NCBI GenBank assembly: GCA_001897515.1
Contig: MKTA01000019.1
Location: 165,726 to 229,725, forward strand
DNA: 64,000 bases
Direction: 5' to 3'
Source of the DNA: Bacteroidetes bacterium 41-46
GTDB lineage: Bacteria > Bacteroidota > Bacteroidia > Bacteroidales > UBA932
The number at the start of each line of letters is the position of its first letter. The first letter of the stretch is position 1. Position numbers and translations under genes: made by a program. The notes under the pieces are model-generated. The model was not told the origin of the DNA. It saw only the letters and a program-made list of their open reading frames with translations, and made no database searches. Below, in pieces: positions 43,116-45,814 of the stretch.

Positions 43116-45488
43116 CTATAAAACAGCAATAAGCTCCCCCACCACCTGATAGTTATCGTCATCAGAGAGGATGATTGGATCATAATCCCTATTTAAGGGT
43201 ATAAGTACAATCTTTTCGTGGATCCATTCGCCGGTATCTTGGTCGTAGGTCTTTTCGCTTGTATATTTCTTGATTGTGAAATGACCGCTGTGATCCGGGT
43301 CAAACAGTGAGTGATGCTGGACAAGGACAATTTTATTGTTTCTTGAACCAACAACATTAGCGCGGAAAACGCAGAGACTTCCGTCTGCAATCCTTGGTTC
43401 CATAGATTTTCCGGAGGCCCTAACCACAAACATATTCTTATTCAGCTTTCCCAAGCCATCTGCTCTCACCCAGCCGGAAATCTGCGCCTCCTCCCCTTCT
43501 CCGAACTTCCCGCAAGCCGCTTTAATTGTATAAAAAGGGAGAAAATCAATAAATTTTGCACTGTCAATAACATCAGGCTCAATACGTAGCTTCTTGTCAA
43601 TTATCTCTTCCTGAACAGGTTTTTCTGCCGAAATCTCCATCTGCATCCTGAAGTGGTTTGCAAGAGGCTTGTCAGAGAAATAAACCCAGCAACCCTTCAT
43701 GCCTCTAGTCATCAGGGTTCTGTAAGTGTTTTTAATAATTCTGTCAGCTGTTTTAAGTGCCTCCTGAGGATTCTCTTTAAACATAGTGCGAATCCCCTTT
43801 AGCGACTGGTCCATTTTTGACCTTCTTTTAAAATCTGTGACTATGCTTCCATCTTCACACCTGATATCTGGACCAACAATAACACCAACATAATCCAGTT
43901 CCAGACCCTGACAGGTGTGAATGCAGCCAATCTCCGTTACAGAGTCTGGAGCAATAATCCAGTTGCTGCCGTCATTTTTCAGGTTCCAACGCATCTCAAA
44001 ATTATGTTCAGGTATTTTAACATCCATTGACAAAGGATTATTTGAACTTATCCAATCCCAACAATATCCTGCAACCATCCTGGATTTATTGTTAATCTTA
44101 TTCATTTTCTCTATCTCTCTTCTGAGCTCATTTGGGTCATCAAATATCCTGAAGTCAAATGTGTCTCCGGTGAGTTTTATATTTGCAGTGTTTGCAATTT
44201 GCAGAGTGTTGTCCAGCCACGAGAGATATCCATCCGATCCGTTGCATCTGAACTGCGACTCCAGCCTGAGTGTGGCTACCTGTGCACCAGACTTCTTTGC
44301 CAGATCTGTAATCTCTTTGCTTGTTCCAATATCCTTGATATGTACCCGCTGGTCGTTATCTATGAAGAAAATTGAAAACTTAGAGGCATTAATAATTTCA
44401 AGAATCTGGTTGTCTCCCATATTTTGAAACAACCCCGACTTTAGATTGAGTCTGTGAGCCTCATCCACAATCAGAGCATCAAACAAATCCGGCTGACAGT
44501 CAATAAAACTGCCGGAACCTCCAAAAAGATTGTTGATACTGCTGCTTTTTACTACCCCTCTAAGCTTTGTAGTATAGACAGCCCTTGGGGCAGCATTCTT
44601 TGATACATATTTAGCAACCATCCCCTCTTTGGTAAGATTTGCAAGAAGATTTATTGCCACAACACTCTTACCTGTACCCGGCCCCCCCTCAACAATCAGC
44701 ACTTGCTTTTTGCCGTTTTTGCTGGTTCTAGCCATTCTAACAGCCGACTCATAAACCAGTTTCTGGTCATCAATCATAATAAACTCGCTGTTACCCTTAA
44801 GCATTGAGCCGATAGCATCGGCGAGCTGCTTTGATGGTCTAAGCTTACCATTCTCAATCCGGTACATTATGTCCCTGTTGTCACCATATTTTACATATCT
44901 CTTGATGAAATTCCTCAGTTTTATTGCATCTGGTCTGAGAAATACAGGAGCCTTTTCAGTATAATATCTAAAGACCTCATTGGTGATAACATTGTCCGGA
45001 GAATAGTTGTGAAGATAAGCACAGGGAATTATATCTATTTTCTCATCCTGAATGGTTTGATTATAATCCATTAAAGTAGACGCATAAGACCAGGCCTGAT
45101 ACGATGGATGGACAGTATCTGTATATCCATGCTGAAACCTTGTTCTCACCAGATCCGGCATAGATGTCAGCTCTGCCTGACTCCACTGCTTTAACTCCAC
45201 TATTACCACCTTCTCCTTTCCCTCGCTGTCAAGGCCGGTAATTATAAAGTCTATTCTTTTGGATGTGAGCGGAATCTGAAACTCAATAGATATTCCTGCA
45301 TCATGAGCGATTTCTGGATCTTCAAGAACATTCTTCATCCTTAGCATAGAGTTAGCCCAAGACTGAACTTCATTTGGAGCCGCATTTCTGCCCAGAAAGC
45401 TCTTAAATGCCTTCTCTATCTTTATTTCAATTTCGTTATGAATAACGTCGTTAAGAAAATCCTGTTTAATTGCCTGGTAAACTATCAT
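43116..45488 (-). CDS. PD-(D/E)XK nuclease - DUF2075 helicase - S24 protease fusion
   Basis: A 790-residue protein with three parts. The N-terminal region (about 1-200) has a restriction-nuclease-like site, Asp80 (SKRIDFIITG) and E98-L-K100 (VVIVELKQW). The DUF2075 P-loop helicase core (about 245-640) has Walker A GGPGTGKS at 268-275 and DEAH at 342-345, followed by later helicase motifs (RLESQFRC, HTCQGLELDYVGV). The C-terminal LexA/UmuD-type S24 domain (about 650-790) has Ser695 in ASGKSMEP, Lys740 in FTIKKY, and Cys659-Gly660 as a possible self-cleavage site. It overlaps the MazG-like gene by 4 bases (ATGA). A nucleic-acid-processing defence or damage-response protein is a plausible inference. 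Confidence 0.87.
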   Translation of the reverse strand: MIVYQAIKQDFLNDVIHNEIEIKIEKAFKSFLGRNAAPNEVQSWANSMLRMKNVLEDPEIAHDAGISIEFQIPLTSKRIDFIITGLDSEGKEKVVIVELKQWSQAELTSMPDLVRTRFQHGYTDTVHPSYQAWSYASTLMDYNQTIQDEKIDIIPCAYLHNYSPDNVITNEVFRYYTEKAPVFLRPDAIKLRNFIKRYVKYGDNRDIMYRIENGKLRPSKQLADAIGSMLKGNSEFIMIDDQKLVYESAVRMARTSKNGKKQVLIVEGGPGTGKSVVAINLLANLTKEGMVAKYVSKNAAPRAVYTTKLRGVVKSSSINNLFGGSGSFIDCQPDLFDALIVDEAHRLNLKSGLFQNMGDNQILEIINASKFSIFFIDNDQRVHIKDIGTSKEITDLAKKSGAQVATLRLESQFRCNGSDGYLSWLDNTLQIANTANIKLTGDTFDFRIFDDPNELRREIEKMNKINNKSRMVAGYCWDWISSNNPLSMDVKIPEHNFEMRWNLKNDGSNWIIAPDSVTEIGCIHTCQGLELDYVGVIVGPDIRCEDGSIVTDFKRRSKMDQSLKGIRTMFKENPQEALKTADRIIKNTYRTLMTRGMKGCWVYFSDKPLANHFRMQMEISAEKPVQEEIIDKKLRIEPDVIDSAKFIDFLPFYTIKAACGKFGEGEEAQISGWVRADGLGKLNKNMFVVRASGKSMEPRIADGSLCVFRANVVGSRNNKIVLVQHHSLFDPDHSGHFTIKKYTSEKTYDQDTGEWIHEKIVLIPLNRDYDPIILSDDDNYQVVGELIAVL

Positions 45489-45814
45489 AACTCATTATAC
45501 TTTTTCGCATTACCCTTAGCTTTATCCACAGGGTATTTTTTTGAATTATGAACTAATTTCTCTTCAATAATATTATGAACATCAAAGTCAAACTTATCTG
45601 CCAGAAGAAGCGCATAAATCATTACATCTGCAAGCTCCTCCTTTAATCTCTCCCTGTTCGCATCATTCTCCTTTTTCCACAGAAACAACTCAAGCAACTC
45701 AGACGCCTCAATATTTAAAGCAATAGCTAAATCCTTGGGGTTATGGAACTGTGCCCAATCTCTATCATCGCGAAATTTTACGATTTTAGAAATCAATTCA
45801 TTCAATTCTGACAT
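45485..45814 (-). CDS. MazG-like nucleotide pyrophosphohydrolase
   Basis: A 109-residue all-alpha NTP pyrophosphatase of the DCTPP1/RS21-C6 type. The sequence FRDDRDWAQFHNPKDLAIALNIEASELLELF carries the first E-x-x-E metal motif, and KEELADVMIYALLLADKF carries the second (E-x-x-D). Relatives hydrolyse dCTP and modified dNTPs to monophosphates. It is the first gene of a two-gene operon with the nuclease-helicase-S24 protein, 39 bases after a terminator-like hairpin. Confidence 0.92.
   Translation of the reverse strand: MSELNELISKIVKFRDDRDWAQFHNPKDLAIALNIEASELLELFLWKKENDANRERLKEELADVMIYALLLADKFDFDVHNIIEEKLVHNSKKYPVDKAKGNAKKYNEL

Follow-up and report, generated by a model that had tools for sequence, protein, structure and literature searches.

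Two overlapping genes, both read from the reverse strand of the window (the whole 64,000-nucleotide stretch of DNA analysed here), appear to form an as yet unstudied system of defence directed at foreign DNA. The first gene (45485–45814) encodes a MazG-like all-alpha NTP pyrophosphohydrolase of 109 residues, whereas the second (43116–45488) encodes a 790-residue protein that joins a putative nuclease, an SLFN-g3 helicase and a LexA/UmuD-type S24 region in one chain; the two share four bases (45485–45488), as the ORF coordinates confirm. A defence role for the pair is well supported by genomic context. As to how it would work, we give somewhat better than even chances to a horizontally transferred Type-IV-like restriction cassette, in which the small enzyme keeps C5-modified (or plain) dCTP in check and a damage-responsive switch is optional. 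Literature searches found nothing on MazG together with DUF2075, nothing on MazG with Schlafen beyond a liver-cancer paper, and nothing on DUF2075 with defence, the DUF2075 papers retrieved being on other subjects by title and opening lines of the abstract.

Architecture of the putative nuclease–helicase protein

The description of the 790-residue protein draws on the ORF list, Pfam, alignment and an AlphaFold2 model (mean pLDDT 85); searched by sequence against solved structures, the protein gives just weak matches in the P-loop region. Residues 1–230 (44799–45488, reverse strand) form the putative PD-(D/E)XK-like nuclease domain, modelled with a mean pLDDT of 88. The residues originally proposed for its active site, Asp80 and Glu98-x-Lys100, are correctly positioned and are invariant in all 38 aligned N-termini. 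Because a Pfam scan of the N-terminus matched no nuclease model, the PD-(D/E)XK assignment is drawn from this motif together with weak Foldseek matches, the best of which is EndoMS (E = 0.0074, probability 0.92), accompanied by VC1899 and Cap4. The same Pfam scan recognised no modified-base reader domain in the protein.

The SF1-type motor follows at residues 261–606 (43671–44708, reverse strand). It matches SLFN-g3_helicase PF09848, which we take to be the former DUF2075, over the full length of the profile (1–354 of 354; E = 4.2e-102, 342.5 bits), with Walker A at residues 268–275 and DEAH at residues 342–345; all 28 aligned sequences keep GGPGTGK and the Asp, Glu and His of DEAH unchanged. 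The protein is an SLFN-g3 (DUF2075) helicase, as had been predicted. Foldseek matches for the domain include DSH9, Dna2, RecD2 and SLFN14. The last of these, and the Pfam name, which stands for Schlafen group 3, would suit a Schlafen-like nuclease acting on RNA or tRNA and shutting translation down. We consider such an activity very improbable: SLFN14 ranks below both Dna2 and RecD2, Pfam gives no match to a Schlafen nuclease domain, the N-terminus carries the PD-(D/E)XK-like motif with its best, albeit weak, fold match to a mismatch nuclease, and in a sister clade that N-terminus is replaced by a GIY-YIG-like domain.

The C-terminal region (about residues 651–790; 43119–43538, reverse strand) matches Peptidase_S24 PF00717 at residues 677–786 (E = 2e-10). 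It contains Cys659-Gly660, Ser695 and Lys740, the serine lying 36 residues past the scissile pair, as in UmuD. The codons of the predicted self-cleavage bond, placed by [A/C]-G conservation, span positions 43509–43514 (reverse strand). Among 34 distinct S24 tails, gathered by similarity to that of the window, Ser and Lys are each present in 34 and [A/C]-G in 31. The predicted LexA/UmuD autoprotease signature (scissile [A/C]-G, Ser and Lys), which is that of SOS proteins, is thus intact. However, S24 occurs in at least 14 of 80 homologous loci, a count that includes L022 and L029, leaves out the more distant S24-like tail of L098 and covers some loci that end before the C-terminus; most homologues lack it. 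The protease switch of the original prediction therefore keeps its signature but becomes an optional regulator.

The MazG-like enzyme and its probable substrate

The window's MazG-like protein matches PF12643 (E = 3.7e-21), and Glu36, Glu39, Glu60 and Asp63 are invariant in all 55 sequences of the MazG alignment. A profile search of solved structures returns DCTPP1 first (107 bits) and 4qgp second (105 bits), whereas the window sequence alone returns 4qgp, a 'pyrophosphatase' of unnamed substrate, first and DCTPP1 second; the alignment to DCTPP1 covers residues 12–109 of 109, including the catalytic Glu/Asp motifs. By these sequence features the protein falls among the all-alpha MazG-like enzymes of the DCTPP1 group (E-x-x-E ... 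E-x-x-D), with DCTPP1 the nearest named relative. DCTPP1 is described as hydrolysing dCTP and 5-methyl, formyl and halogenated dCTP (PMC7162842). Since no named relative of solved structure is closer than DCTPP1, we prefer 'hydrolysis of dCTP and/or C5-modified dCTP' to the nucleotide depletion first proposed; DCTPP1 acts on plain dCTP too, so the enzyme may deplete the pool or may sanitise it.

Depletion would be central to abortive infection, in which the nuclease–helicase senses phage replication intermediates and the MazG-like enzyme, once set free or activated, breaks down the cell's dCTP so that replication stops. The activity of DCTPP1 on dCTP itself (PMC7162842) agrees with this scheme, as do weak profile matches to AbiO and to Nhi, for which activation by phage SSB has been described (PMC10732053). 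Yet the MazG-like enzyme, with a full active site in 109 residues, has no space for a separate regulatory domain, and the closest solved relative of the NUDIX enzyme in a parallel system (see below) is reported to prefer C5-substituted cytidine triphosphates, a preference that simple depletion does not call for. We judge abortive infection unlikely.

MazG has been connected with defence before. Burroughs 2015 reportedly named it as a predicted defence domain. DefensePredictor, in its Fig. 6F, places MazG among predicted, unvalidated defence domains (PMC13092281), and the MazG cases of either study might overlap the pair described here.

Conserved pairing, joint transfer and exchange of nuclease modules

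The pairing is not local to this genome. Of 80 homologous loci, drawn from many phyla, 70 have a MazG-like gene, in 64 of them upstream on the same strand and in 60 of these 64 adjacent (genes called by a simple longest-ORF script, with eight upstream genes in overlapping frames assigned by hand); the pairing recurs on a plasmid of a haloarchaeon and in one phage record. The four-base overlap is identical in L012, and similar stop-to-start spacing is seen at many homologous loci. Of the ten loci without MazG, three have no upstream sequence, one has only 1.15 kb, and six have full flanks. A survey of 296 Bacteroidota genomes gave 22 strong MazG-like hits (>50 bits) and 35 strong SLFN-g3 hits (>150 bits), and 14 of the former have one of the latter within 3 kb. 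Of the remaining eight, one is next to a 231-residue GIY-YIG/P-loop remnant, three are next to genes for HNH endonucleases (two identified by Pfam, the third by its similar start, judged by eye) and one is without an SLFN-g3, GIY-YIG or HNH partner; G297, G293 and G245, also strong PF12643 hits, are probably not true members, and in the two of their neighbourhoods examined no ORF matched the window's MazG. The pairing of MazG and SLFN-g3 helicase is far beyond chance. It thus upholds the original prediction, as does the conservation of nuclease and helicase residues among homologues.

Plasmid records with a match number 39; in five loci examined from them, MazG is present in two (L220 and L223, the latter with MazG beside a broken main gene) and absent from three. 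Four phage records have a match, one of which was examined; a pattern scan of viral contigs picked out 52 stretches, and no relative is encoded in any of them. The loci without MazG, i.e., the ten of 80 (four of them with missing or short upstream sequence) and three of five on plasmids, would agree with two unrelated genes that merely travel together. This is scarcely credible, since the pairing spans bacterial phyla and an archaeon, the genes overlap by four bases, and NUDIX, a comparable pyrophosphohydrolase, occurs in L172 as a fusion with a distantly related helicase.

The distribution is patchy: counting the genome of the window itself, 15 of 99 have a relative of the helicase region. 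Compared with G011, eight flanking genes are 83–98% identical in DNA and the pair 73–76%, whereas compared with G007 the pair is 85–86% identical and four flanking genes 72–77%. These identities indicate that, within the genus, the pair is transferred jointly and independently of the genes on either side.

The nuclease module itself varies. L012 combines a GIY-YIG-like domain with SLFN-g3 and S24, and is accompanied by MazG. In the GIY-YIG clade of nine proteins, the MazG partners are 57–70% identical to that of the window and the helicase proteins 24–26%; the GIY-YIG Pfam match scores 22.5 bits in L012 (cut-off 22.6) and 30.2 bits in L160, the other members being placed by tree. Sequence comparison thus points to the exchange of PD-(D/E)XK-like and GIY-YIG-like modules in front of the SLFN-g3 helicase. 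A mirror test of MazG against helicase proteins over 88 pairs gave no correlation (patristic r = -0.105; p-distance r = 0.098), whereas the PD-(D/E)XK set by itself gave r = 0.529 (n = 79).

Genomic neighbourhoods

Counted as models and not as proteins (one SauUSI-like protein, of L041, alone matches 11 at 1e-5), PADLOC matches number 143 for 143 genes of a first set of loci, 110 for 134 genes of further loci and four for 134 control genes. The first set comprises 143 of 191 eligible genes, among them the NUDIX and SauUSI-like genes of L041, from 16 loci hand-chosen partly after their gene maps had been seen; the test was therefore repeated on 56 other loci (55 with eligible genes), from which 134 of 583 genes, representing 47 loci, were drawn randomly. 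Controls were 134 of 289 eligible genes in 19 regions of 20 kb at hand-picked places in the first set's 16 genomes, a 20th region of 241 bases being dropped, and so represent the genomes of the first set and not those of the second. All sets omit genes that are shorter than 110 residues, contain X letters or run off an end of the sequence, as well as the main gene and nearby MazG genes. Strong enrichment in defence genes, a check proposed with the original prediction, is thus observed around members of the family. The window conforms to the earlier remark that its surroundings are no defence island, with one of 55 other genes matching PADLOC at 1e-15, but the remark does not extend to the family.

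By eye, the genes around the pair in the window (tal, gpx, marR, HD, guaC and an antiporter) look metabolic. C5-cytosine methyltransferase-like genes lie within a distance of seven genes in 7 of 93 loci (by eye), and Vsr and NUDIX clusters were also named by eye in the neighbour gene maps.

Ordinary-looking metabolic neighbours would also fit a house-cleaning or repair role, in which the pair rids both the nucleotide pool and the DNA of cytosine nucleotides that are oxidised or modified, S24 links this work to SOS, and the defence neighbourhoods are secondary. MazG and NUDIX enzymes have been described as house-cleaning enzymes, and the S24 signature is of the SOS-protein type. A repair gene would not, however, be expected to show so patchy a distribution, to be transferred as a unit, to turn up in archaea, a phage record and plasmids, or to be enriched near defence genes, and we regard this role as improbable.

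A parallel NUDIX pair and the proposed mechanism

In Bacteroidota, a NUDIX gene lies directly upstream of a SauUSI-like PLDc-SF2-DUF3427 gene in seven of the seven strong DUF3427 loci (of 44 DUF3427 places, the 37 weaker being left out of the count), and four of the seven carry a window-type S24. The closest solved relative of this NUDIX is 3GWY/Q5LBB1, with reported kcat/Km values of 4.8e6 for 5-Me-dCTP and 4.4e6 for 5-MeOH-dCTP (PMC5158307); SauUSI is reported to cleave m5C/hm5C DNA (PMC3874153). MutT homologues next to SauUSI homologues already appear in a figure legend of PMC7641849. In L041, the genes for MazG, Bro-N, the main protein, NUDIX and SauUSI-like-S24 stand in a row, so that both pairs adjoin.

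In the restriction-cassette reading that we favour, the 790-residue protein would be a helicase-driven endonuclease, its PD-(D/E)XK-like nuclease set before the SF1-type SLFN-g3 motor, which degrades foreign DNA. The most likely target would be DNA with C5-modified cytosine, in a Type IV-like action, and the protein might work like a SauUSI-like Type IV enzyme although it is no member of that family. The DCTPP1-type pyrophosphohydrolase would clear C5-modified dCTP, perhaps dCTP, from the pool, which would deny phage the modified precursors and keep host DNA free of modified bases that the nuclease would attack. In the window's lineage, S24 is predicted to self-cleave between Cys659 and Gly660, possibly in response to RecA-ssDNA, and would so act as a damage-responsive switch. 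Of the 'DNA-damage-responsive or anti-phage module' first suggested, the role against phage or other foreign DNA has the support of genomic context; the damage trigger, like the DNA and dNTP substrates, we infer.

Several observations weigh against this main reading: the lack of a recognised reader domain, the weak nuclease fold match, the absence of S24 from most homologues, the six fully flanked loci and three out of five plasmid loci that have no MazG, the negative all-pairs mirror test, the empty scan of viral contigs, the window being no defence island, and the rank of 4qgp above DCTPP1 for the window's MazG alone. At the 7 of 93 loci with cytosine methyltransferase-like genes nearby, a nuclease with a general dependence on m5C is hard to reconcile with those genes.

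More tentatively, we suggest as a possible general principle that C5-modified cytosine is policed twice, by a nuclease–helicase on DNA and by MazG or NUDIX, two folds recruited independently, on modified dCTP; the hydrolase would both starve modified phages and prevent self-attack, and an exchangeable LexA-like domain would tie either version to DNA damage. If true, this would explain the nucleotide pyrophosphohydrolases beside nuclease–helicases in many genomes, give a function to the widespread SLFN-g3 helicase family of bacteria and archaea, predict a new modified-DNA-dependent nuclease, and add SOS-type autoproteolysis as a defence switch; the clustering of 'house-cleaning' enzymes with defence genes would become a question directly testable with two genes.

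Comparison with known systems

The S24 region resembles LexA and UmuD in its Cys-Gly scissile pair, the serine at +36 and the lysine, but is joined to a nuclease–helicase, whereas LexA and UmuD are a repressor or a polymerase subunit. DCTPP1 (RS21-C6) is an animal house-cleaning enzyme that works on its own, whereas the window's MazG is paired with a nuclease–helicase.

Nhi and AbiO are nuclease–helicase or helicase defence proteins, and both profiles weakly match the helicase region of the window protein. Coverage is only partial (Nhi, E = 4e-9, positions 198–332 of 470; AbiO, E = 8.9e-10, positions 176–369 of 468), and the window system adds a MazG partner and S24; we assign the protein to neither family. 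To PDC-S41 and PDC-S07, candidates for phage defence in PADLOC, it is only a distant relative: L172, a NUDIX-SLFN-g3 fusion without S24, matches both nearly full-length and scores 951 bits for PDC-S41, whereas the window protein, which has S24, scores 57 bits through residues 19–299 (best profile stretch 20–275 of 657) and is not a member. No mechanism of PDC-S41 is known to us from the literature.

SauUSI with its MutT/NUDIX neighbour offers the same arrangement, i.e., a nuclease and a helicase motor in one chain with a small pyrophosphohydrolase gene directly upstream. The parts differ, PLDc, SF2, DUF3427 and NUDIX in SauUSI standing against PD-(D/E)XK, SLFN-g3 and MazG in the window; by Pfam, the window protein has no PLDc, no DUF3427 and only a weak ResIII match, which places it outside the SauUSI family.

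Architecture and catalytic residues of the pair

The two open reading frames, at 43116–45488 (−) and 45485–45814 (−), encode a nuclease-helicase-S24 protein of 790 residues and a MazG-like partner of 109, and their positions bear out the original prediction of both frames, their strands and the 4-base overlap. The Pfam profile PF09848 (SLFN-g3_helicase, formerly DUF2075) covers residues 261–606 of the large protein over its whole length (342.5 bits), Peptidase_S24 matches residues 677–786, and the small partner matches MazG-like PF12643. The nuclease residues that had been proposed, Asp80, Glu98 and Lys100, are invariant in 38 of 38 N-termini, as are the helicase GGPGTGK motif and the Asp, Glu and His of DEAH (28 of 28) and, in MazG, Glu36, Glu39, Glu60, Asp63, Lys86 and Tyr94 (55 of 55). 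The AlphaFold2 model is confident (mean pLDDT 85; 88 for the nuclease domain alone) and in full resembles SF1 helicases, including DSH9, Dna2, RecD2 and SLFN14. The top match of the nuclease-domain model is EndoMS, at an E-value of only 0.0074, with VC1899 and Cap4 weaker still; all three are PD-(D/E)XK nucleases.

The S24 tail retains the whole autoprotease signature, formed by Cys659-Gly660, Ser695 and Lys740, with a bond-to-serine spacing of 36 residues that equals that of UmuD. Among 34 distinct tails from three protein types, all collected by similarity to the window's own, all 34 have both the serine and the lysine, and 31 have the [A/C]-G bond. S24 is therefore optional: of 80 loci with a homologue, at least 14 have it.

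Conserved linkage and exchange of modules

A scan of 84,980 species genomes yielded 102 relatives. The best 80 loci were retained; judged by record titles, they span Bacteroidota, Bacillota, Omnitrophota, Verrucomicrobia, a gammaproteobacterium, candidate-phyla bacteria and others. Of these 80, a MazG-like gene is present in 70: upstream on the same strand in 64 (60 adjacent, four with a gap of 0.6–1.2 kb), directly downstream in four, and upstream on the opposite strand in two. Six of the ten loci without MazG have full flanks; three contigs begin inside or at the main gene, and one has just 1.15 kb upstream. The 296 Bacteroidota genomes searched give 22 strong MazG-like matches and 35 strong SLFN-g3 matches. 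Of the former, 14 have one of the latter no more than 3 kb away; of the latter, 21 lack a strong MazG-like match alongside. A haloarchaeal plasmid, where the annotations read ‘nucleotide pyrophosphohydrolase’ and ‘DUF2075’, also bears the pair, as does a Microcystis phage record. MazG is present in two of the five plasmid loci examined and missing from the other three, which include those of Methanosphaera and Halomonas. Five homologues assigned to candidate phyla by record title (L036, L038, L040, L050 and L093) likewise have MazG directly upstream.

Within the PD-(D/E)XK set, MazG distances agree with those of the large protein (r = 0.529, n = 79; the highest value among 1000 permutations is 0.125). 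This agreement is lost over all 88 pairs (r = 0.098; patristic r = −0.105), as expected from swaps of the nuclease module. At locus L012, a GIY-YIG-like nuclease replaces the usual one, the helicase and S24 are retained, and the MazG overlap is again 4 bases; in the nine-protein clade of L012, as delimited by a tree, MazG is 57–70% identical to that of the window and the large proteins 24–26%. Three other MazG genes stand next to HNH endonuclease genes, and so does one SLFN-g3 gene that lacks MazG. We note that such HNH genes occur at L161:7875-9208, L164:5389-6619 and L171:5607-8411, with N-termini that look EVE/PUA-like by eye only.

The 99 genomes searched belong to the genus, its family or its order and include that of the window. 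Matches occur in 17 and are confined in two cases to the S24 or P-loop part; at genus level the count is 10 of 25. Genome G011 keeps the order MazG, main gene, gpx, marR, HD and guaC (flanking names assigned by eye), and before tal two short ORFs intervene where the window has one antiporter gene. Measured as DNA identity, its agreement with the window is 94% in tal, 93% in gpx, 88% in marR, 83% in HD, 90% in guaC, 84% in DUF2461, 98% in Sel1 and 92% in a hydrolase gene, and falls below these flanks in the pair (MazG 76%, main gene 73%). Genome G007 has the opposite pattern, with the pair (86% and 85%) above the flanks (tal 77%, HD 74%, guaC 76%, DUF2461 72%), and the two patterns are best explained by joint exchange of both genes. 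In G017, a broken copy with two in-frame stops adjoins HsdM and HsdS genes. At L236:3833-9990, in a same-genus genome, the Type I restriction-modification genes HsdM and HsdS beside the broken pair give it a defence setting that the window lacks.

Defence neighbourhood

At E ≤ 1e-15, 143 genes neighbouring the main gene in 16 loci, picked by the analyst partly after viewing gene maps, match 143 PADLOC models, with mREase_IV and PbeA leading among the matches listed (five proteins each). In a second set, drawn at random from the other loci to take out this selection, 134 genes match 110 models, including, among the matches listed, Druantia, SspF, PglX, Type II and III restriction and PDC-S41; 134 control genes from the genomes of the first set match 4. 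The window itself is quiet, with one of 55 other genes matching PADLOC. Families recurring within seven genes in 93 loci, named by eye, include cytosine-methyltransferase-like (7), NUDIX (4) and Vsr-like (3). Whatever its mechanism, we regard the pair as probably a defence cassette.

In 6 of 93 loci, a related large gene recurs at most three genes away from the main one. This recurrent gene (L024:6657-8324, L219:2629-4647, and in L022, L068, L096, L176 and L187) overlaps MazG by 4 bases in L022, and Pfam identifies its L024 product as a TPR-repeat protein; in the Microcystis phage record, too, MazG follows a TPR protein gene. The recurrent gene is a possible third component of the cassette.

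A parallel NUDIX and SauUSI-like system

The window's S24 domain as query retrieves proteins of 1149–1161 residues that are SauUSI-like. In the one at L167, Pfam identifies PLDc, SF2 helicase and DUF3427 domains, with S24 at 23.2 bits, just under the 23.3 cut-off, and the large S24-type protein of L041 matches PADLOC mREase_IV at 6.6e-230. We know of no description of a SauUSI-like enzyme fused to a LexA/UmuD-type S24 domain. SauUSI itself, with PLDc, P-loop and DUF3427, cuts m5C and hm5C DNA (PMC3874153). DUF3427 matches 44 places in the 296 Bacteroidota genomes, 37 of them weaker and 7 strong (above 250 bits). All 7 strong loci, the ones examined for this, have a NUDIX gene immediately upstream, five overlapping by 8 to 55 bases, lengths that depend on the start codons chosen by the ORF script, and two 1–4 bases apart; four of the seven carry S24. 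MutT homologues beside SauUSI homologues were already noted by Bell et al. 2020 (PMC7641849). C-termini resembling the window's LexA/UmuD-type S24 domain are seen in the SauUSI-like proteins of L275, L277, L278, L279, L167 and L168.

The two systems also meet. On one strand of L041 (8697-15711), MazG, Bro-N, the main gene, NUDIX and the SauUSI-like-S24 gene follow in a row; a SauUSI-like gene immediately precedes MazG in both L089 (confirmed by Pfam) and L090, and in L070 one stands three genes away from the main gene. At L172:7125-9497 (−), a NUDIX domain is fused in frame to a distant SLFN-g3 protein, and the fusion matches PADLOC PDC-S07 and PDC-S41 nearly full length.

Nucleotide substrate and relation to known systems

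The nearest solved structure to the NUDIX proteins is 3GWY (E = 6e-38 for L041, 8e-39 for L167), an enzyme (Q5LBB1) that hydrolyses 5-Me-dCTP with a kcat/Km of 4.8e6 per M per s and 5-MeOH-dCTP with one of 4.4e6 (PMC5158307). MazG, whose fold differs from NUDIX, has DCTPP1 as its best profile match (E = 5.6e-30), followed by 4qgp (‘pyrophosphatase’, 2.1e-29), which ranks first when the window's MazG alone is the query; DCTPP1 substrates include dCTP and 5-methyl-, 5-formyl- and 5-halogenated dCTP (PMC7162842). Chiefly because comparable nuclease-helicases have recruited two folds that probably share a substrate class, we infer C5-modified dCTP as the substrate class. By analogy, the DNA target might be modified-cytosine DNA, and within the restriction-type reading we put forward C5-modified cytosine as target only tentatively. 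That reading as a whole, a Type-IV-like nuclease-helicase with a MazG that polices C5-modified dCTP (perhaps dCTP) and an optional S24 switch, is one we favour slightly.

No paper treating MazG and DUF2075 jointly was found in the open literature, the sole open-literature paper for MazG and Schlafen is unrelated, and among the matches listed in broader searches of this open literature, none describes the pair by title or abstract start. DefensePredictor gives MazG as a predicted, unvalidated defence domain, and PADLOC includes a sister helicase family as candidate PDC-S41. Restriction-type nuclease-helicase defence is known, and the nucleotide-policing partner with an optional autoproteolytic switch would make the cassette a variant of it.
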